DNA of 64,000 bases from Thiocystis violascens DSM 198. GTDB lineage: Bacteria; Pseudomonadota; Gammaproteobacteria; Chromatiales; Chromatiaceae. Made by a program: the position numbers and the translations under genes. The stretch is from contig NC_018012.1 in the NCBI RefSeq assembly GCF_000227745.2, positions 186,001 to 250,000 on the forward strand, written 5' to 3'. Positions 826 to 18,048 of this stretch are shown here, piece by piece (the first letter of the stretch is position 1; every line of letters starts with the position of its first letter). The notes beneath the pieces were generated by a model. The model saw only the letters and a program-made list of their open reading frames with translations. It did not search any database and was not told the DNA's origin.

Positions 826-1284
826 TCACCGAACAAGAATGACCTGCCGCATGGAGCCGACCTCGACCTCGATCTGCATCCGGTCGATGCGCTTGACCCG
901 GATCACCGCGTTCGGAGAGGCCACGTTGATACCGATGGTGTCGCCCTCGCGCACCACATGCGTGCCCACCCCCTGCACCTCCAGCAGCGCCGCCTTGTTG
1001 CCGTTCTGGAGCATCACCATGCCCTTCAGCTTCATCTTGGGCGCCGGGGCGTTGCCCTCGGCATTCTGGAAGCCTACCTTGGCCTCGCTGTCGCTGAAGC
1101 GCTTGAGGATGGGCGCCGTCAGATCGAAGGGATTGCGCGCGTCGCCGCGATAACCGGGCCGGTCGGCCGTCTGCGCCCGGACACCGCTCCACTGGGGCGC
1201 GGCCAGCAGGACCGCCAGGATCGCCGCCGCGGACGGCAGAACGCGCGCGCGGCGGCGCGCGCGCTGGACCTCATGAAGCTGCAT
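826..1284 (-). CDS. PilP/GspC-like periplasmic alignment protein
   Basis: 152 aa, predicted as a membrane-anchored periplasmic protein that would link the inner-membrane platform to the secretin. An N-terminal hydrophobic helix lies at about residues 15-33, followed by DARNPFDL, the short 'NPFD' type motif common to PilP/GspC homology-region proteins, then a small beta domain ending in IDRMQIEVEVGSMRQVILVR. I place the start at the ATG at 1284-1282 preceded by GGAG; the open frame continues upstream, but there it overlaps gspF in another frame and reads as low-complexity shadow. Its position between gspF and the secretin matches MSHA (mshK) and T2SS logic. Sequence similarity is weak by eye, so the assignment rests on architecture plus position. 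Confidence 0.75.
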   Translation of the reverse strand: MQLHEVQRARRRARVLPSAAAILAVLLAAPQWSGVRAQTADRPGYRGDARNPFDLTAPILKRFSDSEAKVGFQNAEGNAPAPKMKLKGMVMLQNGNKAALLEVQGVGTHVVREGDTIGINVASPNAVIRVKRIDRMQIEVEVGSMRQVILVR

Positions 1285-1304
1285 GCGAACGTTTAACTCC
1301 TGCA

Positions 1305-2522
1305 CTATTTCGTCGAGACCTTCAGCGCCGCCTGGAAGAAGGCCAGATACACCGTCCCCACCATGCCGCCCACGATCAGAATCATCACCGGCTCGACCCA
1401 GGCCGCCATCACCTTGACGCGCGCCTGCAAGTCCTTGCGGTAGTAATCGGCCAGCGACTGCATCACCGCCTCCAGCTCGCCGCTGCGCTCGCCGATGGCG
1501 GCCATGTGCCGCACCAGCGGCGGCATCACCTTCGCCCGCAGCGCGATCGACAGCGGCTGCCCGCCCAGGATGCGCTCGCCGGCCTGCTCGAAGGCATCGG
1601 CAAAGGCTTGATTGCCGATCACCCCGGCGGCGATCGAGAGGCTCTGCAACAGCGTGATGCCGCTGCGCAACTGCATCGCCAGCATCGAGGCCGCCTGACC
1701 CAGCGACGCCGAGCGCAGGGTGCCGCCCACCACCGGGATCTTCAGCATCAGACCGTCGATGACCCGCTTGCCGCCCTTGGTCGTGTAGGACGCCAGCGCC
1801 GCGAAGATGAAAAGCCCCACGCCGCCGCCGAAGATCGCGCCCCAATCCTGGAACCAGCCCGCCAGATCCATCAGGAACTGCGTCACCGGCGGCAGTTCCA
1901 CCCCGCGCGCGCCGAGAAACACCGCGAAGCGCGGGATGACCCAGCCGACCAGCGCCGCCGACACCCCCACCGCCACCAGGAACACCAGGCTCGGATAGGT
2001 CAGCGCCGTCATGAGCTGACGCTTGATGTCCACCCGCCGCTCGATGTCGTCGGCCAGACGCTCCAGGATGTCGTCGATCTCGCCGCTCTTTTCCCCGGCC
2101 TCGATCAGCTTGGACACCATCGGCGGAAACACCTGCTTCTCCGCCGCCAGCGCGCGCGACAGGCTGCCGCCGTCCTCGATCAGGTCGCGCATCCGCCCGA
2201 GCGCCTTGCGCAACTGGAATTTCACCGCCATCTCGCGGTTCGCCTCCAGCGCCTGCACCACCGTATGTCCGGCGCGCAGCATCAGCGCGAGCTGGCGGAA
2301 CAGAAACACCAGATCGCCCTGGCTGGTGCTCAGATAGCGCTTGGGCGCGAAGCGGCTGACCCCGCTCTCGTCGCGCCCGGCGGCCTGCGGATCGCGGATC
2401 GAGAGCGCGAAGATCTTGGCCTCGCGCAGTTGCAGCGCCGCCGTGCGCTCGTCTGCGGCCTCGATGTGTCCGACCCGCTCGGCGCCGCTGGCATCCAGCG
2501 CCAGATATTCGAAGACCGGCAT
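1305..2522 (-). CDS. Type II secretion/type IV pilus platform protein GspF/PilC family
   Basis: 405 aa, the usual family length. It begins MPVFEYLALDASG, the standard GspF opening, and has two T2SSF domains: the first with GGSLSRALAAEKQVFPPM near residues 120-135, the second with GGQPLSIALRAKVMPPLV near 315-335. Three membrane helices are visible (about 172-198, 222-245 and 375-398). The protein is the polytopic inner-membrane platform that couples the cytoplasmic ATPase to pseudopilin or pilin extrusion. It starts one base after the gspE stop, so the two are translationally coupled. Confidence 0.95.
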   Translation of the reverse strand: MPVFEYLALDASGAERVGHIEAADERTAALQLREAKIFALSIRDPQAAGRDESGVSRFAPKRYLSTSQGDLVFLFRQLALMLRAGHTVVQALEANREMAVKFQLRKALGRMRDLIEDGGSLSRALAAEKQVFPPMVSKLIEAGEKSGEIDDILERLADDIERRVDIKRQLMTALTYPSLVFLVAVGVSAALVGWVIPRFAVFLGARGVELPPVTQFLMDLAGWFQDWGAIFGGGVGLFIFAALASYTTKGGKRVIDGLMLKIPVVGGTLRSASLGQAASMLAMQLRSGITLLQSLSIAAGVIGNQAFADAFEQAGERILGGQPLSIALRAKVMPPLVRHMAAIGERSGELEAVMQSLADYYRKDLQARVKVMAAWVEPVMILIVGGMVGTVYLAFFQAALKVSTK

Positions 2523-2523
2523 C

Positions 2524-4149
2524 TCAACGCGCGTCCGGCGGCACCAGCCGCTCCACTTCGGCGAGCGTTACCGCGCCTTCCAGCACCTTGGAGCACCCGT
2601 CCTGCCAGAGGGTGTAGTAGCGGTCCGTCGCCGTCTGGCGGATCAGATCCTCGCGCGCGCCGGTCGCGATCAGCTCGCCGAGCGGGCGGTCCACCCACAG
2701 CGCCTCGTAGAGCCCGACCCGTCCCGCGAAGCCGGTGCCCAGACAGGCCGGACAGCCGACCGGGCGATAGAGCGTCAGCTCCTCCGGCAGCGTGCCGCCG
2801 AGCCGCCGGCGCTCGTCGGCGTCCGGCGTATAGGGCTCCCGGCACTGCTGGCACAGCCGGCGCACCAGCCGCTGCGCCATCACCCCGATCAGGGTCGCGC
2901 CGATCAGATAGTAGGGCACCCCGATGTCGGCCAGGCGCGTCACCGCCCCGACCGCGTCGTTGGTGTGCAGGGTCGCCAGCACCAGATGCCCGGTCATGGC
3001 CGCCTTCATCGCCGTTTCGGCGGTCTCCAGGTCGCGCACCTCGCCGACCAGGATCACGTCCGGGTCATGACGCAGAAAGGAGCGCAGCGCCAGCGCGAAA
3101 TCCACCTTGGTGCTCACCTGCACCTGCGAGATCCCCGCCACCACCTGCTCGATGGGATCCTCCACCGTCAGGATGTTGAGATCGTCCGCGTCCAGCTCGC
3201 GCAGCGCCGCGTAGAGCGTGGTCGACTTGCCGCTGCCGGTGGGGCCGGTCACCAGAATGATGCCGTAGGGCCGGTTGATCGCCTCGCGGAAGGGACCGAG
3301 GATCGGCGGCGGCATGCCGAGCCGCTCCAGATTCAGCCCGGTGGTGCCCGCCCCGAGCAGACGCATGGTCACCCGCTCGCCCCAGCGGGTCGGCGCGGTG
3401 GCCACGCGCACATCCATTGGCGGGGTGTCCCACTGCGACAGGCGATAGCTCATGGAGCCGTCCTGGGGCAGGCGCTGTTCGCCGATGTCCAGGTTGGCGA
3501 GCACCTTGATACGGGTCACCACCGCCTCGCCCTCTTGCAGGGTCAGCGGGCGCGGATACTCCAGCAGATGGCCGTCGACGCGCTCGCGCACCCGCACCGC
3601 GTACTGCTCGGGCTCGAAGTGCAGATCGGTCGCGCGGCGCAGATAGGCATCCTTCATCAGGGTGTCGAGCAGCCCGGTGGCGTCTTGCCCGCTCGCCTCC
3701 GGCGTCGCCAGCAGCGGCCCGCCGCCGCGCTGGCGGCGCAGCGCCGCGCGCAGCGCCTCCGGCGCGGCCAGCGCCGGGCGCAGACGCTCGCCGGTGGCGC
3801 GCTCGGCGATCTCCGGACTCAGCCGATCATCCGGGTCGCCGAGCGCCAGCAGCAATTCCCCGTCGCGGCGCACCGGCAGCATGGGGCGGCGTTGCAGGAC
3901 GTTGTCCGGCAGCTTTTCCAGGAGTTCCGGCACCGCCACCAGATCCTTCGGCAGCAGAAAGATCATGCCGCGCTGGCGTGCCAGTGCCTGATAAAGCGCC
4001 GCCTCCGGGAAACGCCCGGCGCGCGTCACCGCCTCCAGCAGCCGGATACGCTCGCGCCGTGCTTGCAGGCGCAGGGTCGGCAGGGTCTCGGGATCGACCA
4101 GTCCGGCGGCGATGCCGGCCTCGATCAGGGACGCCTCGGTGACCGCCAT
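2524..4149 (-). CDS. GspE/PilB-type assembly ATPase
   Basis: 541 aa from the ATG at 4149-4147, which overlaps the stop of the upstream pilT-like gene (ATGA); the longer frame upstream is inside that gene. An N-terminal MshEN/GspII_E-like domain (about 1-150) is followed by the secretion ATPase core with Walker A GPTGSGKSTT near residue 303, Asp box/Walker B VEDPIE and ILVGEVRDLETAETA, and a His box TGHLVLATLHTND. A C-terminal zinc-binding element has two CxxC pairs (LCQQC, GCPAC). The enzyme would hydrolyse ATP to power assembly of the pilus or pseudopilus on GspF. Confidence 0.95.
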   Translation of the reverse strand: MAVTEASLIEAGIAAGLVDPETLPTLRLQARRERIRLLEAVTRAGRFPEAALYQALARQRGMIFLLPKDLVAVPELLEKLPDNVLQRRPMLPVRRDGELLLALGDPDDRLSPEIAERATGERLRPALAAPEALRAALRRQRGGGPLLATPEASGQDATGLLDTLMKDAYLRRATDLHFEPEQYAVRVRERVDGHLLEYPRPLTLQEGEAVVTRIKVLANLDIGEQRLPQDGSMSYRLSQWDTPPMDVRVATAPTRWGERVTMRLLGAGTTGLNLERLGMPPPILGPFREAINRPYGIILVTGPTGSGKSTTLYAALRELDADDLNILTVEDPIEQVVAGISQVQVSTKVDFALALRSFLRHDPDVILVGEVRDLETAETAMKAAMTGHLVLATLHTNDAVGAVTRLADIGVPYYLIGATLIGVMAQRLVRRLCQQCREPYTPDADERRRLGGTLPEELTLYRPVGCPACLGTGFAGRVGLYEALWVDRPLGELIATGAREDLIRQTATDRYYTLWQDGCSKVLEGAVTLAEVERLVPPDAR

Positions 4150-5345
4150 CAGGGCTGTCTCCGCGGGCGCGGCAGCAGTCCGCCGCGCTTGGCCGCGGTC
4201 TGCTCGGCCAGCGCCGCCTGCTCGACCAGCCGGGCGGCGCGTTCGATCTGACGCTCCAGGGTCTGCGCGTCCTTGCAATGCACCAGCGCCTCGGCGCGAC
4301 TGAGGATGCCCCGATGGACCAGTTCCGCGAGCGACTGATCCATGGTGCGCATGCCCTCGGCCGCGCTGCTCTCGATCAGCGAGAAGAGCTGGCGCGTCTT
4401 GCCCTGCTCGATCAGATTGGCCGCGGCCGGGTTGACCATCAGGATCTCCACCGCCGCCACCCGTCCGCGTCCGCTGGAGCGTCGCAGCAGTCGCTGGGCG
4501 ATCACCGCCTTCAACGACATGCCGATGCGGTGGCGCGCCACGTCCTGCTCGCCGCCGGGAAAACTCCCGACCAGCCGCTCGACGCAGCCCACCGCCTCGG
4601 CGGTGTGCAGGGTCGAGAACACCAGATGTCCGGTCTCCGCCGCCGTGATGGCCGCGCGCATGGTGTCCAGGTCGCGCATCTCGCCGATCATGATGACGTC
4701 CGGATCCTCGCGTAGCGACGCCTGCACCGCCGCCGCGAAACTCGCCACGTCCCGCCCCAGCTCGCGGTGATGCACCACGCAGCGTTTGGGACGATGGACG
4801 AACTCCACCGGATCCTCCACCGTCAGGATGTGCGCGGCGCGGGTCTCGTTGATCCGATCCAGCAGGGTCGCGAGCGTGGTCGACTTGCCGCTGCCGGTCG
4901 CCCCGGTCACCAGTACCAGCCCGGCGTTCAGCCGCCCCACCTCTTCCAGTTGTGGGGGCAGGCCCAGCCGGTCGAGCGACAGCAGCCCCTGGTCCAGATG
5001 ACGGGCGGCGAGCGCCAGGTGACCCTGCTCGCGGAAGAGATTGAGCCGGAACCGCTCGCCGTCCGGCGCGCCATAGCCCAGATCCAGATGGCCGGTCTGC
5101 GCCAGATCCTCGCGCTGGCGCTCGGTGGCGAGGCGCGCCGCCAGCCGCTCCATGGCGTCGTGCCCGACCAGTGCCTCGCCCAGTTCGGGCGGCGCCGGCG
5201 CCAGTTCGCCGAGAATCCGGTAGCTCGGGCGGCTGCCGACGGTCAGATGCAGGTCCGAGGCCCCGAGCGACACGCCCGCGGCGAGCAGCGCATCGAGATT
5301 CAGCCCCACGGGCTCCAGTGCCGTCACAGACATGGCGCCGCTCAC
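4149..5345 (-). CDS. PilT/PilU-type retraction ATPase
   Basis: 398 aa. The sequence GASDLHLTVGSRPSYRI near residue 30 is the PilT N-domain signature; Walker A is ATGSGKSTT near residue 150, Walker B is VIMIGEMRDLDTM, and the His box is TGHLVFSTLHTA. PilT proteins drive depolymerisation of type IV pili. PilT is not a normal component of T2SS or of MSHA operons, so its presence between the PilO-like gene and the GspE gene is notable. It overlaps gspE by ATGA and its start overlaps the end of the PilO-like gene. An alternative start is at the internal Met5 (MSVTALEP). Confidence 0.92.
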   Translation of the reverse strand: MSGAMSVTALEPVGLNLDALLAAGVSLGASDLHLTVGSRPSYRILGELAPAPPELGEALVGHDAMERLAARLATERQREDLAQTGHLDLGYGAPDGERFRLNLFREQGHLALAARHLDQGLLSLDRLGLPPQLEEVGRLNAGLVLVTGATGSGKSTTLATLLDRINETRAAHILTVEDPVEFVHRPKRCVVHHRELGRDVASFAAAVQASLREDPDVIMIGEMRDLDTMRAAITAAETGHLVFSTLHTAEAVGCVERLVGSFPGGEQDVARHRIGMSLKAVIAQRLLRRSSGRGRVAAVEILMVNPAAANLIEQGKTRQLFSLIESSAAEGMRTMDQSLAELVHRGILSRAEALVHCKDAQTLERQIERAARLVEQAALAEQTAAKRGGLLPRPRRQP

Positions 5346-5956
5346 AGGGTCACGTCGATGCTGATGTTCAGCATGCTCTGCTGGGCCTTGGGTTCGCCCT
5401 CGGTGCGCAGTTCCACGCCCAGCGGCGCGCTCGCATAGTTCAGGTTGCCCAGTCCCCGCAGAAAGGCGAGCAGACCCCAGTAATCGCCCGCGCCCTGCAC
5501 CCGCATATAGGGCCGCCCGGATTCCTGATCCCTGAGCGGGGTCAAACCCCGGCGCCCGTCGCTCTCGTCGCCCTGCTTGAGCAGTTGGATGCCGCTCGAC
5601 TCCGCCAGGGTGTTGAGTTCCAGCAGCAGCAGCTGATGCGCGCCGGGGGTGTCGCCCGGCGTGAAGCGTCCGGCGAGTTCCCCGTAACGGGCTTCGAGCG
5701 CCTCCTTCTGCTTGACGATCTTGGGGAGCTTGCCTTGCAGCGCGGCCGCGGTGCCGACATCGACCTGGGGCACCTGAGCGCGCTTCTCGATGCGGTCGGT
5801 ACGCCGCGCGACCAGCGCGGTGGACTTGGTCAGCTCCCGGTTCGCGAAGGGGAAGATCAGCAGCCCGTAGAGCCCCACCGCGATGGCGGTGCCGATCGCC
5901 AGCCAGCGCAGTCGGTCCGCCGGGGGGAGTGCCTGCCAGGTCTGTTTCAGCTTCAT
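5342..5956 (-). CDS. PilO/GspM/MshJ-like assembly protein
   Basis: 204 aa: a short cytoplasmic N-terminus, one membrane helix (about 19-36), a charged coiled-coil stretch (about 40-95) and a small ferredoxin-like periplasmic domain ending LNISIDVTL. This layout is that of PilO/GspM/MshJ, which dimerises with PilN in the inner-membrane alignment subcomplex. The phrase YMRVQGAGDYWGLLAFLRGLGNL is the usual PilO-type element. It overlaps the PilM/N gene upstream and pilT downstream by four bases each, so all are in one tightly coupled operon. Confidence 0.85.
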   Translation of the reverse strand: MKLKQTWQALPPADRLRWLAIGTAIAVGLYGLLIFPFANRELTKSTALVARRTDRIEKRAQVPQVDVGTAAALQGKLPKIVKQKEALEARYGELAGRFTPGDTPGAHQLLLLELNTLAESSGIQLLKQGDESDGRRGLTPLRDQESGRPYMRVQGAGDYWGLLAFLRGLGNLNYASAPLGVELRTEGEPKAQQSMLNISIDVTL

Positions 5957-7812
5957 GTCCCGCTCTCCCCGAAGGCCAGCAACACCTCGATCTGGTAGCC
6001 GGAGATGGCGCGCGGCCCTGGCCCCGCGACGATGCGCGAGTTGCGCACCGTTCCCTTGAGTTCCCCCAGGGTATTGTTCAGATTGGTGACGAAGAGCTGC
6101 GCGGCGGTGCTGTTCAGCGCCCAGCCCCGCAGTTGCACCAGCGCCCCCGGAGTCGGCGGCAGCTTGATTTCATGCAGATACAGCTCGTCGCCGCAGGCGG
6201 CGGCGATCTGTTCCAGCACCCTGGGCAGCCGTTCGCGCCGCGCCGCCAGCCGCTCCATCGCGGTCACCTTGCCGGTCAGGTCGGCGATCACGCGCTCGGC
6301 GGCGGCGATCTCGGCCTGTAGCCGGTTGGCCTCGGCCAGGATCTCGTTGGCGGTCCGCTTCTGCTCCAGTTGCTCCTCGTAGAGCGCATCCAGCCGCTCC
6401 AGCTCGCGGTCGTTGTCCCAAATCGCGACGCGCATGCGCACATCGTTGGCCAGCACCGCCATCAGCACCGCCGCCGCCGCCGCGTAGGGCAGCAGATCGC
6501 GGCGCTTCCACAGCGGCGCGCGCGCCGGCTGCGCCGCCACCGAGGCCAGCGCCGCGCGCGGCACCGTGCCCAGCACATGACGCGCCACCGCCAGGATCTC
6601 GTCGGCGATCGCATCGCGCGGCGGGGTTTCCGGCGCGGCCGCCGGCCGGGCGCTGGCCGTGTCCGCCGCGCGCGCGCGCCAGAACCGCCGGGCGCCCTTG
6701 TCCAGCGACACGGGCGCGGATTCGGGTTCGGACAGCGCCGCGTCGTCGCCGGCCCGCACCACCTCCAGGCCCAGCAGGTCGGCGAGCGCCTCGGATAGTT
6801 CCGCCGCCTGATCCTCCGGGGCGCGCAGATGGATCTGGCGGATCTCCGGGGTCAGTTCCTCGCGGCACAGCCCGGCCGCGTCCTCCGGCGGCAGGCGACC
6901 GTTACGGGTATTGCCCACGCGCAGACTGCGTAGCGCGCCGGGGCGTCCGCGCATCACCGCGAACTGTTCCGGGTGTACCTCCAGATAGAGCGTCTCCGCC
7001 CCCGGCGACGCCTCCAGGGTGACGAAGCCGGCGCCCAGGATGGCATAGGCCGTGTCCAGGAAGATCCCCTGGCGCTGACATGCCTTGACCCAGGCGCGGC
7101 GCAGACTCTCCGGCACCGCGAGCGCCAGCCAGGAGAAGCCCCGCGCGTCCTCCTCGTCGTCGTCGGAATCCTCTTCCAGCGGACGGCTCTGACCCACCCA
7201 GCCGCACACCAGTTGATCGTCGGCGCGGAACAATTGATCGCGCAGTTCCACGCACTCCTCGACCTGATCGCGGGTGACCAGTTCGGCCTCGACCGCCACG
7301 TCGCCGAACCGCGCCTTGACGCGCGGTCCCGCCTCTTTGGGGAGCGCCTCCGCATCCAGCGCCTGCAGCGCCTGCCGCTCGGCGACGGCGGAGCGCTGTT
7401 CCGGGGTCAGATAACCGCGCCCCATCAGCGGCGCGCCGATGGTCCAGAACAGATTCTGCTCGCTGAAGAGACTCTCCAGCTCCCAGCGCACCAGTTCGTG
7501 CATCTGCTCGCGCGGGCGCGGATGTTCCGGGTCCACCGGCAGATCCAGCAGGGCCGTGACCGCCGAGGCGCTCATCAGCACAGCCTTTTTCGGCAGTCGC
7601 CGCACCCCGCGCGCGCGAAGCCCCTCCAGCGCCTCCGCCACGGCGACCTGCGGATCGATGGCGAGCGACAGCGCGCGGGCACGAATGGTCGCGCCGGTCA
7701 CCCCGGTCTGCACCAGGGCCGCCGTCAGGCGATAGCCATCGCTGTGCAGCACCAGCACCCGGCCCGGCTTGCCGATCTGGATGGTGTTGAGTTGGGAGAG
7801 GGGGTTTTTCAT
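5953..7812 (-). CDS. PilM-PilN fusion (GspL/MshI-like)
   Basis: 619 aa. The N-terminal 340 or so residues look like an actin-like PilM/GspL cytoplasmic domain (opening GKPGRVLVLHSDGYRLTAAL). A membrane helix lies near residues 438-457 and is followed by a long coiled coil (about 460-530) and a PilN domain (LRGWALNSTAAQLFVTNLNN). In canonical T4P these are two proteins; a single chain is the GspL/MshI arrangement. An acidic patch EEDSDDDEED sits in the cytoplasmic part. It is the first gene of the tightly overlapping block, and its upstream gap holds tandem heptamer repeats rather than an obvious promoter. Confidence 0.85.
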   Translation of the reverse strand: MKNPLSQLNTIQIGKPGRVLVLHSDGYRLTAALVQTGVTGATIRARALSLAIDPQVAVAEALEGLRARGVRRLPKKAVLMSASAVTALLDLPVDPEHPRPREQMHELVRWELESLFSEQNLFWTIGAPLMGRGYLTPEQRSAVAERQALQALDAEALPKEAGPRVKARFGDVAVEAELVTRDQVEECVELRDQLFRADDQLVCGWVGQSRPLEEDSDDDEEDARGFSWLALAVPESLRRAWVKACQRQGIFLDTAYAILGAGFVTLEASPGAETLYLEVHPEQFAVMRGRPGALRSLRVGNTRNGRLPPEDAAGLCREELTPEIRQIHLRAPEDQAAELSEALADLLGLEVVRAGDDAALSEPESAPVSLDKGARRFWRARAADTASARPAAAPETPPRDAIADEILAVARHVLGTVPRAALASVAAQPARAPLWKRRDLLPYAAAAAVLMAVLANDVRMRVAIWDNDRELERLDALYEEQLEQKRTANEILAEANRLQAEIAAAERVIADLTGKVTAMERLAARRERLPRVLEQIAAACGDELYLHEIKLPPTPGALVQLRGWALNSTAAQLFVTNLNNTLGELKGTVRNSRIVAGPGPRAISGYQIEVLLAFGESGT

Positions 7813-7815
7813 TAT

Positions 7816-7871
7816 TCAGTTATCAGTTATCAGTTATCAGTTATCAGTTATCAGTTATCAGTTGTCGGTTG
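7816..7871. repeat. Heptamer tandem repeat TCAGTTA (6 exact + 2 degenerate)
   Basis: Six exact TCAGTTA units (7816-7857) followed by TCAGTTG and TCGGTTG. It lies immediately upstream of the PilM/N start codon. A similar TTATCAG heptamer type is known from filamentous cyanobacteria (general knowledge). Confidence 0.95.
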
Positions 7872-7874
7872 TCA

Positions 7875-7902
7875 GGGGCAAGGGGCAAGGGGCAAGGGGC
7901 AA
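7875..7902. repeat. Heptamer tandem repeat GGGGCAA x4
   Basis: Four exact units that directly follow the TCAGTTA array; same unit as the 13-copy array at 42370-42460. Confidence 0.95.
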
Positions 7903-8228
7903 GGCGTAGGATGGGTAGAGTGACCGCGCGCCGACCTGGCGCCAGCCCGCCGAGGCTGGCGCCAGCCCGCCGAGGGTGGCCGGTCACGAAACCCATCGAC
8001 CGCGAGCACCAAGCAAGCCGTCGGAGCCCGCTGGCGGGCGATACGGGCGAGGCGTCCGGTCGGGGTGCGCCGGTTGGCTGCCTTCCAAAGCCCCGCTCGC
8101 CAGCGGTGAGATGCCTGTCCTGAGCGAAGCCGAAGCGGGCGAGGGGCGAAGGGCGAGCCATCGCCGCATCGGTTGTGATTGCCGCGTTTCCAAGGGGTAA
8201 GGGTTGAGTTGTCATGGCGCGATTTGGC
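7903..8228. repeat. Intergenic repeat-rich stretch between pilin-like and PilM/N genes
   Basis: No gene is supported here. It holds a GTAGGATGGGTAGAG motif near 7905 and an inverted partner (GAAACCCATC) near 7989, flanking two copies of a GCCAGCCCGCCGAGG unit (7942 and 7961). This looks like a dispersed palindromic repeat. The six-frame reading frames through it are short and of low complexity. Confidence 0.6.
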
Positions 8229-9779
8229 TTAGTTGATGGGCCAAGACCCGGGTAGGACTAGCCGGACCGTGCCCGGAATGAGCGTGAATCGGCGCCATGT
8301 AGTCATAACAACTGGTACCGTCGAAGGGGATATACTGCAATCAGTATTATCAATACGGTAAAATCTATAGGCCATTTCACCGAGATGAAGATACGTATCT
8401 GTGTCGTATGGATCCGTGTCGCCCCCAAATGTGAAGGTATGCACCTGCCTATTTCCGTTTGAGTTGAGTTCTAATTGATTGCCACTACCGCTTGATGGCA
8501 TCTGTTTGATTTCGCCGTTTTCACGATATGCGACACGCAGGCACAGGTTATTATTTGCAGTGCCGGTGCCGAGAATGTAGGCGGCCGGCATCAAAGACCA
8601 GAATTGATTACTCAAAGAGCAATCTGCTTGATCTACAATAGAGTAATCACCATTAGCTTGGAAGCCAACAATGTCCCCGTTTGTTGAGTTGCGACAGACG
8701 TTTGCCGGTGCTACCCAAACGCCGTTAGCATCACCTTCGCAGTCGGCTGGAGTGCGTCTCTCGGGTAAATTGCAAACACCGCCAGGCCTGATTCGCCATT
8801 CCCATGTTCCAGTACATTGGGCTTCATCTTTTGCGGGAGGATCACATGACCATCCTTGATTGATCTGCGTTACCCATTGGGTGGTTATATCTTGACCATA
8901 ATTATTGCAGTCATTAGATGTATCCATGCCATCATCCCAATAGTTTATTACACGGCAAGCGCCACCATAACGTAGGCAAGTCGCCGCATCGACAAAGCCG
9001 CCATCGCTGCATGAAACCGATGAACCATAGCTGCCGAAATCGACGGTAATCCCTTGGCCGTTGTCATCAGAAGGTGTGCCGTCCCAATCAGTAATTAAGA
9101 CACAATATTCATTATTATAAACAAGGGTCTCTGAACCCGCAGGCGGGTAATCCTCTTCATAAAGCAAATCTCCACCTGGCTTGCCATCCATGCCATAACT
9201 CTGAATGATTAAGTCATAAGGGGTTGATGGTGGTACAAGCGGATCAAACCGCCATCCAAAGTTATCCGTACCATCGTCGTTGCCCCATCCATCCCGATAA
9301 ACCGGGGCTCCATCCTCATCCGCAGTTGCGACCAAATAAGGGCCGTTCCAGCCTGCCCGCAGACCTGTGTCAACATTGATTGTGCTTTCGGGTAGCTCTA
9401 ACCAGTTGCTGGGAGTGGCGGGATAATAAGTTTCGCAATCGGTCTGAGTCCGAACCTCGCGATGACCCTGGCAGTATTCCCGTGTCAGCAGTTCGGTCAG
9501 GTTGCGCGGCAACCTCCCCATATCCGCAACAAACCCCCGAATCTCCGGCTGTCCGTTGAGCGTACGCGAGGTGTCACCGATGATCGCCTTGCGGATCATC
9601 TCCAGACGGTTCTTCGTATCCTGATACCGCGCCTGCCCCAGATCGTCCCCCACCTGCGACAGCGCCATGAAGCCGACCACGGACATGAGCGCGACCACCA
9701 CCAGCAGTTCCAGCAGGGTCATGCCCCGCTGGGGGCGGCGGGCGGGCGGGCGGTCCATCGCGGTCGGCCGGGCGTTCAT
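8229..9779 (-). CDS. Large Cys-rich type IV pilin-like protein
   Basis: 516 aa, far longer than ordinary pilins or pseudopilins (130-200 aa). Residues 1-19 form a basic leader ending at the prepilin peptidase site G/MTLLELLVVVALM, followed by the hydrophobic N-helix; the new N-terminus would be Met with Glu at +5. The ectodomain has about 20 cysteines and glycine/aspartate/tryptophan-rich segments, for example VCNLPERRTPADCEGDANG near residue 340. The ectodomain DNA (8229-9440) is much more AT-rich than the leader and flanking genes. The start codon overlaps the stop of the upstream secreted-protein gene (ATGA). It could be a tip adhesin, a major subunit with a surface domain, or a sensor; the sequence does not decide. 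Confidence 0.85.
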   Translation of the reverse strand: MNARPTAMDRPPARRPQRGMTLLELLVVVALMSVVGFMALSQVGDDLGQARYQDTKNRLEMIRKAIIGDTSRTLNGQPEIRGFVADMGRLPRNLTELLTREYCQGHREVRTQTDCETYYPATPSNWLELPESTINVDTGLRAGWNGPYLVATADEDGAPVYRDGWGNDDGTDNFGWRFDPLVPPSTPYDLIIQSYGMDGKPGGDLLYEEDYPPAGSETLVYNNEYCVLITDWDGTPSDDNGQGITVDFGSYGSSVSCSDGGFVDAATCLRYGGACRVINYWDDGMDTSNDCNNYGQDITTQWVTQINQGWSCDPPAKDEAQCTGTWEWRIRPGGVCNLPERRTPADCEGDANGVWVAPANVCRNSTNGDIVGFQANGDYSIVDQADCSLSNQFWSLMPAAYILGTGTANNNLCLRVAYRENGEIKQMPSSGSGNQLELNSNGNRQVHTFTFGGDTDPYDTDTYLHLGEMAYRFYRIDNTDCSISPSTVPVVMTTWRRFTLIPGTVRLVLPGSWPIN

Positions 9780-10318
9780 GGCTGGACCATCGCCAGGGGC
9801 GCGCGCTCGTAGCCGACGATCAGGATCGCCGGGCCTTTCGAGTAGTTGTAGACATGCCAGCCGGTGAAGAGGGTCGCCGTGCCCTCGCCGAGCCGCTTGA
9901 TGCCCTCGACCTGGGTGTCCTCGACATAGACCGGCAGGATGTGACCGCCCGGCGTCTCGACGAACATGCGGTGCGAGACCTTGGGTTCGGGGTCGAGCGG
10001 GAAGAAGCTCAGCGCGGTGTAGAGATAGTCGGTGTCGCGCTTGCGCGGCTCCTGCTTGATGCGCGCGCCGAAGCGCACCGGCGAGGGCTTGAAGAAGGCG
10101 CTGGTGCCCTTTTTCTCCGGGCGCGCGCCCTTGATCAGTTGGTCGATGTCGATGTCCTGGTATTGGGGTTCTGCCTGCGGCTGTGCGACGGTCGGCGGCT
10201 GATCCGGCGCCGCCGGCGCGGTCTGCGCCGCCGCGCCGCCCGGCGTCATCAGCGGCAGGCCCAGGGCCAGGCTCAGGGCGCCGATGCGCGCGGCCAGTGT
10301 CTTGATGCGGTTCTTCAT
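9776..10318 (-). CDS. Secreted protein of unknown function coupled to the pilin gene
   Basis: 180 aa from the ATG at 10318-10316; the upstream in-frame extension is repeat DNA. Residues 1-31 form a signal peptide (LALGLPLMTPGGAAAQ region), followed by a Pro/Gln-rich linker and a compact domain with SPVRFGARIKQEPRKRD and VETPGGHILPVYVEDTQ. I recognise no family. It is translationally coupled (ATGA) to the large pilin-like gene and lies upstream of the PilM/N-to-secretin block, so an accessory role in pilus assembly or export is a reasonable inference only. Confidence 0.75.
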   Translation of the reverse strand: MKNRIKTLAARIGALSLALGLPLMTPGGAAAQTAPAAPDQPPTVAQPQAEPQYQDIDIDQLIKGARPEKKGTSAFFKPSPVRFGARIKQEPRKRDTDYLYTALSFFPLDPEPKVSHRMFVETPGGHILPVYVEDTQVEGIKRLGEGTATLFTGWHVYNYSKGPAILIVGYERAPLAMVQP

Positions 10319-10483
10319 GCTGTCATCTCGGGTTGTCTGAGGTCGCGGGCGCGGAGCGCCCCCCTGGTTTACTCGTTCCACGCGTTTCCATGCTCCCGCG
10401 TGGGAATGCCGCCGCACCGCGCCAGCGGTGCGTCCGTTTGGCGCGCCGCCCATCGGCCACGCGACGCCGGAGCGTCGCGAACG

Positions 10484-10507
10484 GCTCCCACGCTGGAGCG
10501 TGGGAGC
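10484..10507. repeat. 24-bp palindrome (REP-like), copy 1
   Basis: GCTCCCACGCTGGAGCGTGGGAGC reads the same on both strands apart from the centre. A near-identical copy is at 10783-10806. Confidence 0.85.
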
Positions 10508-10557
10508 GAGCGTGAGCCAACCTGAATCCGTTCGTGGTGAGGCACTCGAACCTCACT

Positions 10558-10600
10558 TGAAGCCGTTCGTGGTGAGGTTCTCGAACCATGAACGGCTTCA
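10558..10600. repeat. CCGTTCGTGG hairpin family, copy 2
   Basis: A 43-base imperfect hairpin. Its reverse complement is identical over all 43 bases to the copy at 42546-42588, which shows the family has spread recently. Confidence 0.9.
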
Positions 10601-10850: not shown

Positions 10851-11831
10851 TTATTCCAGGCAGAGGACGATGTCGTCATGGTCGTCGTCGGGGTCGTTTC
10901 CTTCGTCCCCACTGTTGCCGCGTTCGCAGGGGTCGACGCCGTTGACGCCGCCGTAACGACCATTTTGCCCCATGCTGACGAGGCGTGGTCGCAGACCAGC
11001 CGGGGTTTCTGCTAGGTCGAAAACGAAATAGGGTCCGCCTATGCGTCCGAGGTAATAGCCGTTGATTTTCTTGTTAATGGCGACTTCGCGCGGGTAAGCG
11101 TTGTGTGTGCTGCGCCAGTCCAGCAGCCAACGGTCATATTTCGATCCGTCGTCAAATTTATGGAAAACATCGAAATTCGGGTCGGCTTTCACCGGGTCGG
11201 TGTCGCCAAAGGGGTCGGCGATCCCAATAGCTTCCGCGACCAGTTTGGCTGTGCCGCCATCTTCGATCGGGCTGCCGATGCCGTTGGTCTTTAGGTCATC
11301 GGAAAGGTCGACCAGGCTTTGCGAATCGCGCCGGAGATAGGGACCGCGCCAGCCACGGCCACGGCTAGCGTCCCAACTTTGTTCTTCGCTACCAGTACAG
11401 CCAAGCCATACCGGCCATTGAGGCGCAGGTGGCGGTAATGGGTTCGTGATGATCGGGCACTCGAACAACTGCCAAAAATTGGCTGGTGAATAGAACCATG
11501 CAGCGTTTTCCGCGGGAGTCCTGCTCGCATGATCGGGAATCGTTGATTCATTCACACCACCCGAATAGGTCGTGGAGCCAACCGTTAGCGCCAACCCAAA
11601 CGGCCCCTGCTTCGGGTAATACCCCGTATCCTGCTTGAACTGCCGGATCGCCTTGGCGATCTCCTGCATCTCGACGCGGGCGAGCTGTTCCTTGTTGTCT
11701 TCGATCACGCCGGTGAGGTTGAGCGCGCCGATGCCGGCGACGGCGGCCAGGATGGCGACGGTCACCAGCAGTTCCAGCAGGGTCATGCCGCGCTGGGTGT
11801 CGGGCGGGTGTCGAAGTGGGGCGTGGATCAT
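10851..11831 (-). CDS. Large type IV pilin-like protein (326 aa)
   Basis: Starts at the ATG at 11831-11829 (MIHAPLRHP). The 15-residue leader ends at the prepilin peptidase site G/MTLLELLVTVAILAAVAG, followed by a GspG-like helix (EDNKEQLARVEMQEIAKAIR) and YYPKQG, typical of major pseudopilins. The ectodomain is about 290 residues, two to three times the GspG length, with WRGPYLRRDSQS, a GspG-type motif, in the middle, and an acidic Asp-rich tail (GNDPDDDHDD). Together this suggests a GspG/PilA-type fold with insertions. It precedes a repeat-filled gap and then the secreted protein and third pilin. Confidence 0.85.
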   Translation of the reverse strand: MIHAPLRHPPDTQRGMTLLELLVTVAILAAVAGIGALNLTGVIEDNKEQLARVEMQEIAKAIRQFKQDTGYYPKQGPFGLALTVGSTTYSGGVNESTIPDHASRTPAENAAWFYSPANFWQLFECPIITNPLPPPAPQWPVWLGCTGSEEQSWDASRGRGWRGPYLRRDSQSLVDLSDDLKTNGIGSPIEDGGTAKLVAEAIGIADPFGDTDPVKADPNFDVFHKFDDGSKYDRWLLDWRSTHNAYPREVAINKKINGYYLGRIGGPYFVFDLAETPAGLRPRLVSMGQNGRYGGVNGVDPCERGNSGDEGNDPDDDHDDIVLCLE

Positions 11832-12141: not shown

Positions 12142-13191
12142 TTAGATGGTATTGCGCGAGCCATCCCATTCGCCCAGCTCTTCTTCCTTGGTGTCGCCCG
12201 CGCCGTCGATGACGGTGACGAGGTTGACCTGATCGGCAGCTTCCCAGGTAGGCAAGGTCGCGCCAATAGCGCCATCAGAGACAGCACCACTACCAGCATC
12301 AACAGTTGCTTCGGTGGTGGTTCCGACCTGGAAGAGGGCAATGAACCGGTTGTACTCCGCGCCGGAGACATGCCGGTAAACGGGCACCGATGTCATGCTG
12401 CCGAGCGTGCCGTTCTTGAACAGGGTCGATGATGGGCCAATGCCGACGGCCATCATGATGGGCTTGCCAGCAGGAACAGTGCCGCTGCCGGACAAGGCGC
12501 CGGACGAGCCCAGGATGCGCTCGTAGTTGCCTGTCCAGATGGCGACGTCGAGACCCGTCGTGCCATATGCGGTCGCGCTGAAGTCGCTGCCGTCATTCGG
12601 GAAGTTATAGCTAAAGCCGCATCCATTTGCGTCCGGACTCAGGTAGATGTTGCCGGGAACGACGGCGTTGGTCCGCGCCAGGATGAGCGCTTCCGGAGTC
12701 GCGCAGGTCTTTCCGCTGCTGTCTTCAGGCGTAAAGCTGGAGTTCTTGGCGACGTAGCGCAGACCCTCGATACCGCCCGCAAACATGCCCGCTGCCGCAG
12801 AATTGGGCAGTGCTGTGATGGTGAAATCGGCCTTATCGAAGGCGACCATGTCGTACCACTCGGCGCCAGTGATCACATCATCTGTGGCGCCGTTGGTGAG
12901 CGTCGGCACCGTAGTAACTTGCAGCAGTGAATCCCAATCGCTCGGCAGCACATTGCGGTTCAAGACGCGATAGGTCGCGATGCCCTTATTCAACTCATCC
13001 ATCATGGCGACATGCGCGGCGGCGGAGGCACGGGCGTCCGTGTCTTGCAGGGCGATGGTGGCGGTACCGGCGATGGCGGCCAGGATGGCGACCACGACCA
13101 GCAGTTCGAGCAGGGTGAAACCCTTTTGGCCGCGTTTGGCGCGACGGCTCTGGAGGCGGGTGGCGAGTTTGGCAATACGGGTGAATTTCAT
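12142..13191 (-). CDS. Large type IV pilin-like protein (349 aa)
   Basis: Starts at the ATG at 13191-13189 (MKFTRIAKL). A basic leader of 24 residues ends at the processing site G/FTLLELLVVVAILAAIAG with the standard Phe+1 and Glu+5. The ectodomain is Ala/Gly/Ser/Thr-rich, about 320 residues, with two Cys (TCATPEAL, NGCGFSYNF) that could form the pilin disulfide, and MMAVGIGPSSTLF. It is the first gene of the minus-strand pilus locus. The Phe+1 makes it the best candidate for a polymerising subunit among the three. Function inferred from the N-terminus only. Confidence 0.85.
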   Translation of the reverse strand: MKFTRIAKLATRLQSRRAKRGQKGFTLLELLVVVAILAAIAGTATIALQDTDARASAAAHVAMMDELNKGIATYRVLNRNVLPSDWDSLLQVTTVPTLTNGATDDVITGAEWYDMVAFDKADFTITALPNSAAAGMFAGGIEGLRYVAKNSSFTPEDSSGKTCATPEALILARTNAVVPGNIYLSPDANGCGFSYNFPNDGSDFSATAYGTTGLDVAIWTGNYERILGSSGALSGSGTVPAGKPIMMAVGIGPSSTLFKNGTLGSMTSVPVYRHVSGAEYNRFIALFQVGTTTEATVDAGSGAVSDGAIGATLPTWEAADQVNLVTVIDGAGDTKEEELGEWDGSRNTI

Positions 13192-14812: not shown

Positions 14813-15777
14813 TCACACCGGCAGCCCCGCAGCCAGTAACTGGCCATGCAGTTCCTGGGTCCGCCCCGGTGCCAACTGGCCGTGCAGAAAGGAGCGAATC
14901 TCCGCCGGGCGGACGTTGAGTAGATCGGCCAACGCCCGGGTGTTGTAGCCGTAGCGGGTCAGGGTCGCCTCCAGGGCATCAATGTCGGCCGCCAGGACGG
15001 CTTCGATGACCTCCAAGGTCACCGGCTTCTGCCCGACCTGATAGGCCGCCTCCAGCGCGAGCGTCAGGTACTGCTCGATCTGCAACGGGGTGGACAGTGC
15101 TGCGGCCAGGCGCTCGCGGGCCTCCGCGGTCAGCAGATCGGCCGCCGTTGCGGGGGCGCATTGCTCCAGCAACCAGTCCAGATAGGCCAACTCCTGCCCT
15201 TTGATCCCGTCCAGCCAGAACAGGGTGGTCCGGGCGCCGATCTCCTCCAGGGCTGGCCGGCGCAGATCGTCCTGAGCTTGGGGTGACCCACCAGGACCAC
15301 GGACAGGGTGCCGCCGTTGTTCTGGACCAGTTCGATCAGGCGCTTCAGCCCGACCAGGGTCTTGGGGTGCAGGTCGTGCGCCTCATCGACGAACAGGGCG
15401 ACCGGCTTCTTGCGCTTGGCGATGACCTCGATGAGCTTGCGCTCGCGCTTCTCCGGCTGGGTGGGGACCTTGAAGTCCTTCTCGGTCAACAGGTCGTAGA
15501 ACAGGGCCAGCATCAGGGTGCCAAGGTTGATCCGATGTTTGTCCACCGCGAGCGACTGGGAGACCAGGATCTCGCGCTCGTCCTTGAGGGCCTCGGTCAG
15601 CCGGTGCAGCGTGGTGGTCTTGCCGCAGCCGACCAGTCCGACCAGGGCCAGGAGTTGACCGCCATGGATGGCGATCTTGATATCGTCGAAGACCCGGCGT
15701 TGCTGGGCGGTTTCGAAATAGCCGGCGCGCGGCAGTCCGCGGGTTAGCCCAAAGTGCTTCATCACCTCGCTCTGCAT
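14813..15777 (-). pseudogene. TniB/ExeA-like transposition ATPase, frameshifted
   Basis: Read from the ATG at 15777, the protein has Walker A LVGLVGCGKTTT near residue 44 and Walker B VALFVDEAHDL near 125, typical of the AAA_22/GspA-ExeA ATPases that select targets for TniA/Mu-type transposases. After VVLVGHPKLR (about 15270) the frame breaks: adding one base restores DLRRPALEEIGARTTLFW and continues without stop into the second frame, which ends at 14813 (LAAGLPV). The lesion is a one-base loss in AGGACGATC. Either the ATPase is inactivated or this is a sequencing error; no slippery heptamer is seen. Intact length would be about 320 aa. Confidence 0.85.
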
Positions 15778-15782
15778 GCCGG

Positions 15783-17420
15783 TCAGCCTCCGCGCAGGGG
15801 TTTCAGATGGGTCCGCGCGTCGTCGATGACGTCGACCTTACGCAGTGACTCGGCCAAGGCGACATCAAGCGCGGCCAGCGCCTCTGCCGGCAGCTTGGCC
15901 AAGGGGGTGCCCAGGTACTCAGCGATGGCGCGTTTTGCCGCGACCGCCGTAGGAAAGGCCAGATCTTGGAACGGGTCCGGATCGACGAAGGGCGTCTGCG
16001 CGACGACGGGCCCTGGCGCCAGTCCTACCGAGGCGGCTGGACCGCCCCACACGGACCCTGGCAGGGCCAGTTGTTCAGCCAAGGCTGCGATGCGCTCAGC
16101 GCGTTGCTGGGTCTTGGTCTTTTTGAACGAGCGGTAGCGATGCAGGGGAATCGGCCCGCCGACCGGGTCGTAGGGGCCAAAGCGCCGCTCACCGTGCTCG
16201 ACATAGAGGGCGTTGTCGAACAGTCCCCACCACAGAATCACGTCCTCGCCGGCCAGATCAGGGTCGACCTGGTAGAGGGTCCCCTCTAGGGAGACCCGGG
16301 CGTCGACCCCGACCTTGCGCCGCTCGGGCTCGCGGGCGAAGGTGCCGAAGCGCTCCCAACTGCACATGGCGCGCACCCCATCCGGGGGCAGGTTGGCCAG
16401 CCAGTCATCGATCCGCGCATGGGGCTCGCGGCGGTGGGGCATGCGGTTGTAGTGGATCAGGAAGCGCAGCAGCCAGGCGTTCGCCTCGGCCTCCGTCTCC
16501 GGCGCGTGCAGGTGGTAGAGGGTCTCATGCATCTCCTTGACGCTGCGAAAGGGCCGCTCGACCTTCCCCTTGGCCCGGGCCGTCGGACGCCGCCCGTCGC
16601 TGTCCTTGGGCATGTGGGTGCGCACCTCGATCCCGAGGTAGTCCATGACGCGGTGGAAGATCAGGCTCTTGCCGATCGGCCCAGAGTCCATGTAGAGCAT
16701 GGCCGGGCGTCCCTGGAATGGCAACTCGGGGTCGGACTTCGGGGCCATCGCGTTGAACAGGAAGCGCAGCGCCGCCTCCACATCCTCGCCATAGACGCCG
16801 TGGTACTCCTGGTAGGCGACCCCGCTGCGGTCATCGACCACGCTGTAGAGCATCAGCAGCGGATGCCCGCGGCCCTCCTCGAACCAGGCCGGGCGCGCGA
16901 CCTGTTTCAGATCCGACGGGCTCAGATCGAACTGCCAGCAGTCGTTGCTGTGGCGGGCCTCGAAGCGCACCGCCGGCGGGACCCGGGTCAGGGTCCGGTC
17001 GTCGAAGCCCCACTGCTTGAGGTAGTGATTCACGGTGCTACGGGTCAGCACCGCGGCCGGGGCACGCAGCAGCCCCGCGGGGGTCTCCACACCATGCTCT
17101 TCGAGCAAGCGGATGGCCTGGACGGTGGAGAGGTGGCGCCCCTTCTTGTTGCTGGTGCGGATCTTCAGCGCCGCAATCACCTCGCAGTCGTGCTCAAGCT
17201 CCGCCGGGGGCAGGACCCGCGGCACCCCGCGGTCGGCGCGGTTCAGGGCCTTGGGCCGGGCGCGTGCGCGCAGTGCCCGATAGAGCGCGTCCTCCGAGAC
17301 CCCGTACAGAGCGGCCGTCTGCTGGATCAGCGCCCGGCGCTCCGGGCTGCGCGGCGCCAATGCGGCGCGCCGACGGCACAGGTCCAGCAGGGCTTCCGGC
17401 GGGAGTTGGTGACGCGTCAT
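15783..17420 (-). CDS. TniA-like DDE transposase (rve integrase core)
   Basis: 545 aa from the ATG at 17420-17418. An N-terminal helix-turn-helix part (about 10-150) precedes the rve catalytic domain with the first Asp in WQFDLSPSDL, the second in MLYMDSGPIGKS and the Glu in ARAKGKVERPFRSVKEMHETL, i.e. a complete D-D-E triad. A Mu-type C-terminal beta-barrel follows (VDARVSLEGTLYQVDPDLAG). It lies 25 bases after the resolvase and five before the ATPase. It would cut and join the transposon ends. Function inferred from motifs and element architecture. Confidence 0.92.
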   Translation of the reverse strand: MTRHQLPPEALLDLCRRRAALAPRSPERRALIQQTAALYGVSEDALYRALRARARPKALNRADRGVPRVLPPAELEHDCEVIAALKIRTSNKKGRHLSTVQAIRLLEEHGVETPAGLLRAPAAVLTRSTVNHYLKQWGFDDRTLTRVPPAVRFEARHSNDCWQFDLSPSDLKQVARPAWFEEGRGHPLLMLYSVVDDRSGVAYQEYHGVYGEDVEAALRFLFNAMAPKSDPELPFQGRPAMLYMDSGPIGKSLIFHRVMDYLGIEVRTHMPKDSDGRRPTARAKGKVERPFRSVKEMHETLYHLHAPETEAEANAWLLRFLIHYNRMPHRREPHARIDDWLANLPPDGVRAMCSWERFGTFAREPERRKVGVDARVSLEGTLYQVDPDLAGEDVILWWGLFDNALYVEHGERRFGPYDPVGGPIPLHRYRSFKKTKTQQRAERIAALAEQLALPGSVWGGPAASVGLAPGPVVAQTPFVDPDPFQDLAFPTAVAAKRAIAEYLGTPLAKLPAEALAALDVALAESLRKVDVIDDARTHLKPLRGG

Positions 17421-17445
17421 GGACGCACCACTCCCGGGCGACGCC

Positions 17446-18048
17446 CTAACGGCCCTGCGCGGCCGGGCCCGGGGTGCCGATCGGCACCCCGCGGTGGCGC
17501 AGGTAGTCGTAGAGGGTACTTTTGGCGATGCCAAGCTGGGCGGCGATCTCGCGCACCGATAGGCGCCGCTCGCGGTAGAGGGTCTCGGCGGCGCAGGCGG
17601 TTTTCTCAGCCTCGGGCGGTAGGCCCTTGGGGCGCCCGCCCAGGCGACCGCGAGCACGCGCAGCGACCAACCCGGCCTGGGTGCGTTCGCGGATCAGATC
17701 CTTTTCAAATTCAGCCAGCGCGGCGAACAAATTGAACACCAACCGACCCTGGGAGGTGGTGGTGTCCAGTGGATCGTTGAGGCTCTTGAGCCCGACCTGC
17801 TGTTCCAGCAGTACGCCAGCCAGTTCGACCAAGTGACGCAGGGAACGCCCGAGACGGTCGAGTTTCCAGATCACCAGCACGTCGCCCGGGCGCAGCTCGC
17901 CCAGCAGGGTATCGAGGACCGGACGCGGGACCTTGGCGCCGCTGACGACCTCCTGGTAGACCTTCGCGCACCCGGCGCGGCGCAAGGCGTCGACCTGCAG
18001 GTCCAGGCTCTGGTCTTTGGTGCTGACACGGGCATAGCCGATGTCCAT
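17446..18048 (-). CDS. Serine recombinase/resolvase (TniR-like)
   Basis: 200 aa. The catalytic Ser is in YARVSTKDQSLDLQ near residue 9, the conserved VIWKLDRLGRSL follows near 60-72, and EKDLIRERTQAGL leads into the long E helix. The C-terminus is a Hin-type helix-turn-helix (LSVREIAAQLGIAKSTLYDYL). It would resolve cointegrates at a res site, probably in the 344-base gap to its right. First gene of the transposon operon. Confidence 0.95.
   Translation of the reverse strand: MDIGYARVSTKDQSLDLQVDALRRAGCAKVYQEVVSGAKVPRPVLDTLLGELRPGDVLVIWKLDRLGRSLRHLVELAGVLLEQQVGLKSLNDPLDTTTSQGRLVFNLFAALAEFEKDLIRERTQAGLVAARARGRLGGRPKGLPPEAEKTACAAETLYRERRLSVREIAAQLGIAKSTLYDYLRHRGVPIGTPGPAAQGR

Follow-up and report, generated by a model that had tools for sequence, protein, structure and literature searches.

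Does the long, cysteine-rich pilin encoded in a type IV pilus cluster of Thiocystis violascens DSM 198 carry a surface domain whose ancestry differs from that of its pilin body, and what might such a domain do? The gene lies on the minus strand at 8229-9779 of a 64,000-nucleotide stretch of contig NC_018012.1 (positions 186,001 to 250,000; hereafter the window, whose own numbering is used throughout). A description made from the letters alone, the sequence-only reading, had taken it for a 516-aa pilin-like protein with about 20 cysteines and an AT-rich ectodomain, perhaps exchanged by transfer. The open reading frame (ORF) matches exactly in strand and coordinates, and its N_methyl motif lies above the cutoffs of Pfam (E 6.7e-7, 29.1 bits against 21.2) and of NCBIfam TIGR02532 (23.5 against 16.3); cleavage is predicted after Gly19, and a glutamate at +5 after the glycine and a hydrophobic N-terminal helix can be read from the sequence (G/MTLLELLVVVALMSVVGFMAL). 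The cysteines, however, number 15. We propose, with a probability of about 0.6, that the gene encodes a large, modular component of a pilus which is specified by one locus and resembles the type IVa pilus (T4aP), and that its head was exchanged by recombination near the boundary between pilin and head. The leader, N-helix and pilin half occupy 9099-9779, where the phylogeny agrees with that of the machinery, and the C-terminal half, which follows a different phylogeny, occupies 8229-9098 and is probably an immunoglobulin (Ig)-like beta-sandwich, weakly matched in fold, with a Cys/Trp-rich insert. Modular pilins are thought to arise by the grafting of domains onto pilins, and if our proposal is true, the same pilin body with heads of different ancestry and a locatable junction would make such grafting observable and testable.

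The evidence for an exchange is a conflict between trees, for which seven of 13 orthologues were used. G190, G439, G352, G897 and L056 were left out as they have no alignable Cys-type C-terminal half, and G441 as it stands in a different neighbourhood in which no PilM/N was found; G190 and G439 have PilM/N, pilin 1 and pilin 2, and were excluded from those trees as well to keep the rows matched. The pilin-2 tree is without G110, missed by the motif used (6 rows), and the pilin-1 tree without G064, a fragment. As the marker of the system we used the PilM/PilN-like protein (5953-7812, 619 aa), which is named from gene order and has no significant family match. Its tree groups this genome (G000) with G032 and G179 at a support of 100/100, and the pilin-2 tree agrees (100/99). 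The N region of the pilin is likewise nearest G032 (114/176 identical, 65%), and its tree contains the same group at 43/97 and rejects G000+G064+G110 (approximately unbiased test, p-AU 0.023). The C region is nearest G110 (73/188, 39%) and G064 (107/280, 38%), with G032 at 58/175 (33%), and rejects G000+G032+G179 with a p-AU of 7e-4, or 0.04 without the insert; this group was chosen from the identities and PilM/N before the C tree, those with G064 and G110 after the identities had been seen. When whole trees are fixed, the PilM/N data reject two C-type trees (2e-42 or less), as do the N data (5e-7 and 3e-6), and the C data reject both the PilM/N tree (4e-4) and the N tree; with the insert removed from the C data both rejections remain (0.027 and 2e-4). 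With the N data, the N tree and the PilM/N tree cannot be told apart (AU 0.29), and with the PilM/N data the N tree is rejected by a narrow margin (0.045). These comparisons support a domain exchange of the C-terminal half, so that this part of the sequence-only reading stands. The best junction, a peak in the cumulative site likelihood, falls at mature residue 209-211 (counted from Gly19 over 498 residues), or 9093-9099. Pilin 1 behaves differently from pilin 2, its tree rejecting G000+G032+G179 (p-AU 0.011) because G032 there pairs with G570 (86/88), as it does in the head tree (94/93); since both pair these two genomes, exchange may be recurrent in these sequences.

Several observations weigh against this reading. 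Only seven of the orthologues were usable, the C-region identities among five compared sequences (G190 left out) are 26-48%, and their alignment is gappy with branches of up to 1.53. No branch of the N-region tree is well supported and G000+G064 is not rejected there (p-AU 0.066), and in the SH (Shimodaira-Hasegawa) test the insert-free C data do not reject the PilM/N tree (0.056). Support for G000+G064 in the C tree is only 82/85, the nearest partner is not resolved without the insert, and no close donor is known, the best C-region identity being about 40%. Both structure models are poor (mean pLDDT, the predicted local distance difference test, of 41 and 47), Glu5 is kept so that the pilin bears no mark of a capping subunit, and the drop in G+C at third codon positions (GC3) begins about 110 codons upstream of the phylogenetic junction.

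That drop is itself real, as the sequence-only reading had seen. In 200-bp windows the GC content is 0.44-0.525 from 8200 to 9399, against 0.655-0.82 over 6000-7799 and 9600-10599; values are also reduced in the pilin-2 gene (0.525-0.61 around 11000-11600). GC3 per 50 codons from Gly19 runs 0.88, 0.66, 0.56, 0.40, 0.44, 0.32, 0.46, 0.46, 0.46 and 0.52, the AT-rich stretch at 8229-9440 (minus strand) being at about 0.3-0.6 with 0.78 in its last 18 codons, whereas the neighbouring machinery genes are at 0.86-0.92 and the gene after the pilin is back at 0.88. For comparison we sampled 464 kb of the genome (the window and 20 evenly spaced 20-kb stretches, ORFs called naively). Of the 119 further ORFs that reach 398 codons or more, a single one has a stretch as low as that of the ectodomain (0.452 over 398 codons), and it seems to be read in the wrong frame. 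Outside the pilus cluster the sample has 270 ORFs, with a median GC3 of 0.765 and a 95th percentile of 0.856; the machinery (826-7812) lies above the latter, so the whole cluster, too, may have been acquired, deviating in this case towards high GC.

Nevertheless, an AT-rich surface domain is by itself no proof of transfer. The uniform composition across relatives that the sequence-only reading had named as the contrary case was not seen, since ectodomain GC3 is below that of PilM/N in 11 of 12 genomes and, with this genome set aside, in 10 of the 11 relatives with a measurable PilM/N. The difference is -0.42 in this genome, -0.18 in G032, -0.06 in G110, -0.23 in G179, -0.21 in G190, -0.13 in G064, +0.02 in G570, -0.22 in a metagenome-assembled genome (MAG) of Desulfobulbus, -0.16 in G439, -0.07 in a Methylophilaceae assembly, -0.11 in G352 and -0.04 in G897; G441, which has no PilM/N neighbour, has an ectodomain GC3 of 0.28 against about 0.6-0.7 in the flanking genes. 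The dip is therefore usual for this gene and stronger than usual in the present genome (-0.42, where the relatives range from +0.02 to -0.23). Because it is shared by 10 of 11 relatives and starts before the junction, composition is weak evidence for transfer, and we reject it as sufficient proof, the argument on which the sequence-only reading had relied.

The same facts lend weight to the most serious alternative, in which the ectodomain was inherited vertically but evolved very fast, relaxed codon selection and AT-biased mutation producing the low GC3 and long branches or misalignment producing the tree conflict. The dip shared by the relatives grows gradually from the N-terminus here, the ectodomains of pilin 1 and pilin 2 in this genome fall too (0.73 and 0.64), and the C-region branches are long and the rows few. 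This explanation does not account as readily for a rejection that is reciprocal and persists without the insert, nor for the identities over 15 pairs, in which G000 and G032 share 0.65 in the N region, nearly the highest value, but a low 0.33 in the C region, and G110 and G064 share 0.57 in the N region yet the highest C-region value of all, 0.48. We therefore consider fast vertical descent unlikely, while taking it seriously.

Returning to an exchanged head, what would have been exchanged? Scans of the pilin against Pfam, NCBIfam and PHROGs gave N-terminal pilin matches only and recognised no family in the extra domain, and PDB sequences gave three non-significant matches (E 0.3-0.37), none of them CofB or TcpB, so that none of these four collections yielded the full-length resemblance to a known long pilin that the sequence-only reading had set down as a point against itself. 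AlphaFold2 gave a mean pLDDT of 41.1 for the window protein (5 alignment rows) and 47.3 for the G110 homologue, which is without the long insert (6 rows) and has a C-terminal block at 50-77. Folds were searched only with this low-confidence homologue model, whose C-terminal part is a beta-sandwich with weak Ig-like matches; Foldseek returned 384 matches at E<=10, of which not one reached E<=0.001. The 50 rows listed by VIA-align have Z values of 3.9-5.3 across 72-105 residues and include many sandwiches of Ig-like or filamin type; by the tool's own warning, a Z under 8 may reflect no more than a common arrangement. From these models the C-terminal half is probably an Ig-like beta-sandwich, and the junction near residue 209, together with a weak structural hint from the poor models, may point to a second module behind the pilin module.

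Between strands of the sandwich lies the insert (8547-9014, minus strand; 156 aa with 10 Cys and 7 Trp, mature residues 238-393), which is collinear with one in G064. Eight orthologues have it, this one included; its length varies between 46 and 156 aa, with 4 to 10 Cys and 3 to 9 Trp, and inspection by eye shows none in G190 and G439. A loose regular expression for a Cys-Cys-Trp motif finds three matches after mature residue 100 here, a number reached in 76 of 2000 shuffles, and 2 in G064 (307 shuffles), 5 in G441 (27), 3 in the Desulfobulbus MAG (54) and 7 in G179 (0), with G032, G110 and G570 left out of the shuffling; some members thus have more of these motifs than chance would give, whereas G064 does not. 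Matches also occur in the pilin half, starting at mature residue 85 to 116, in G032, G110, G179, G441 and the Desulfobulbus MAG, though not in this protein. Two units of the Desulfobulbus MAG agree at 17/23 amino-acid and 55/69 nucleotide positions, a pattern consistent with tandem duplication. We would tentatively extend the proposal to a pilus subfamily, patchy in gammaproteobacteria and perhaps reaching the Desulfobulbus MAG, in which one pilin has a replaceable head that recombination swaps between distant lineages, at a junction that stays in about the same place just behind the pilin fold, and in which short Cys-Cys-Trp units in a loop of the pilin body and a loop of the head, sometimes tandemly duplicated, might vary the binding surface; this wider picture is a doubtful one.

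In the proposed model the protein would be built into the filament through its N-terminal half, a pilin body of the usual kind, and would expose its C-terminal half as a separate head with a disulfide-stabilised Cys/Trp-rich insert. This head would most likely serve in binding, and its target may be a surface, a partner cell or a polymer, so that exchange of the head would change the target. Recombination around 9095 would swap heads between lineages while machinery and pilin body stay together; among the sampled heads, those closest to the one in this genome come from G064 and G110, two relatives of lower GC. The fold, the disulfides, a low abundance or a place at the tip, and the binding of a ligand are all inferred here, and the role of tip adhesin or receptor suggested by the sequence-only reading is plausible by analogy with modular pilins. 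A further comparison is with CofB and TcpB, minor pilins of type IVb pili: these are large pilins with a beta-sandwich part, such as the weak model suggests for this protein, and in the known case they form a tip-located trimer and have a secreted effector as partner; here a conserved, probably secreted protein is encoded directly upstream. The present pilin differs from them in having no match to the solved sequences and in belonging to T4aP-like machinery with a PilT-family ATPase. The pilin also resembles PilB and PilC of Streptococcus sanguinis, which have an N-terminal pilin module, a larger extra part behind it and a similar length (454 residues in mature PilB); in PMC8179133, modular pilins with grafted adhesive domains are described, a vWA module in PilB and a lectin in PilC, and the grafted vWA module mediated adhesion and was modelled at the pilus tip. 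It is unlike them in that its extra part matches no Pfam or NCBIfam domain, its host is a diderm, it has a Cys/Trp-rich insert and there is evidence of head exchange. A review of type IV filaments (T4F; PMC10191384) offers a further analogy for display of a head and binding.

A different identity, as pseudopilin of a system like the type II secretion system (T2SS) and not as pilus subunit, would sit with the N-termini of this pilin and of pilin 2, which after the general pilin motif score best against T2SS pseudopilin models in NCBIfam. The similarity to the major pseudopilin GspG is a weak N-terminal one, and the pilin's GWNGPY...DGWGN...GMDGKPGG resembles what we take to be the GspG motifs GW.GPY and DGWG. 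However, the GspG model scores 21 bits, far below its equivalog cutoff of 88.85, the pilin is nearly four times the model length (134), and the operon holds a PilT-family ATPase above cutoff and separate PilM/N- and PilO-like genes; we regard this identity as very unlikely. We find it hardly probable that the Cys/Trp-rich head takes up DNA, binds metals or transfers electrons in place of attaching to surfaces: the Pfam/NCBIfam scans matched no metal-binding or redox family, although the literature mentions disulfide bonds in pilins of transforming T4aP and, in a minor pilin of T4F, a module that binds DNA.

The surrounding cluster is a single locus, all on the minus strand and with its own PilT-family ATPase, in the order pilin 1, pilin 2, probable secreted partner, 516-aa pilin, PilM/N-like, PilO-like, PilT-family ATPase, PilB-type ATPase, PilC-type platform, PilP-like and secretin. 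Family models recognise four T4aP components: the PilT/PilU-family ATPase (4149-5345; TIGR01420, 388.4 bits against 319.1), the PilB-type assembly ATPase (2524-4149; MshEN and T2SSE, scanned as a longer ORF 2524-4278), the PilC-type platform protein (1305-2522; T2SSF) and the secretin (1-610; 119.7 bits), part of a 759-aa ORF that runs off the left window edge. No matching family model was significant for the PilM/N-, PilO- and PilP-like proteins, named from gene order and size; the PilO-like protein lies at 5342-5956, and that at 826-1305, with no family match for the ORF 826-1845, we take to be PilP-like from order and sequence. Among the scanned operon proteins there was no match to PilHIJK-type minor pilins or PilY1, for which the rest of the genome was not searched. 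Pilin 1 (12142-13191) has a conserved KEEELGEWDG tail and is inferred to be the major pilin, and pilin 2 (10851-11831) has a T2SSG/GspG-like N-terminal half; both starts were picked by eye. The cluster resembles T4aP machinery as outlined by Denise et al. 2019 (PMC6668835), with PilB, PilC, PilT and secretin by family model and PilM/N/O/P-like proteins by order, and differs in that PilM and PilN are apparently fused. According to the same study, T4aP are usually encoded in multiple loci, and it is suggested there that selection favours a single locus in systems often gained and lost, in keeping with the patchy occurrence of the present one.

The probable secreted partner (9776-10318; about 180 aa from an MKNRIK start picked by eye, no family match) overlaps the ATG of the pilin by 4 bp with its TGA, which suggests that the two are translationally coupled. 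A homologue, judged by eye, lies directly upstream of the pilin in nine of 13 loci, with 26-68 bases between its end and the first codon of the conserved Gly in the pilin; in the remaining loci the preceding gene is pilin 2 (three) or another protein (G441).

Strong matches to the pilin occur in 6 of 194 family genomes, with weak N-terminal matches only in ten more, and the same six have strong matches to the PilM/N-like protein, for which G073 is a weak seventh. An alignment search at 1e-20 found the pilin in 7 of 210 order, 4 of 369 class and 2 of 349 phylum genomes, our own genome counted each time. Ten named loci came from a genome collection: three Chromatiales/Chromatiaceae MAG contigs, the Desulfobulbus MAG, the Methylophilaceae assembly and five weaker ones in other phyla, among which the MAG contigs may be misbinned. 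Neither the pilin nor, apart from a 35-residue match in one of them, the proteins flanking the cluster were found in six other genomes of the genus, so no empty site can be defined. There was no match to the whole pilin in phages and plasmids by tblastn or to its alignment in viral contigs. The same kind of search started from L055 gave no match in phages and plasmids and a single PDB hit (E 4.2), and started from G441 it gave none in plasmids, phages and viral contigs, nor in the 194 family genomes, where the result is uninformative as no genome known to match is among them. Literature searches, most subscription journals lying outside their coverage, found no paper on this pilin.

Some minor features accompany the cluster. 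The secretin (L051 2332-4611) has a C-terminal DUF3438/TraK_C-like domain; the G110 secretin has DUF3438 too, with TraK_C below cutoff there, and DUF3438 is typical of integrative conjugative elements. Left of the window, L051 600-1694 encodes an imelysin-like protein (Peptidase_M75) with no match in six other genomes of the genus, and an adjacent copy, 43% identical, holds a stop. An AAA_22 ATPase adjoins a 624-aa protein with weak similarity to Mu transposases and helix-turn-helix proteins at 15130-17657 (minus strand); the latter has three full-length genome copies at 100% listed identity, so a recently active transposon, presumably Tni-like, may sit beside the pilus cluster. Finally, the spacer after the pilin stop has heptamer tandem repeats at 7816-7904, arrays of TCAGTTA and AGGGGCA, and short related stretches occur at dozens of other sites in the genome (48 matches to the spacer, itself included).
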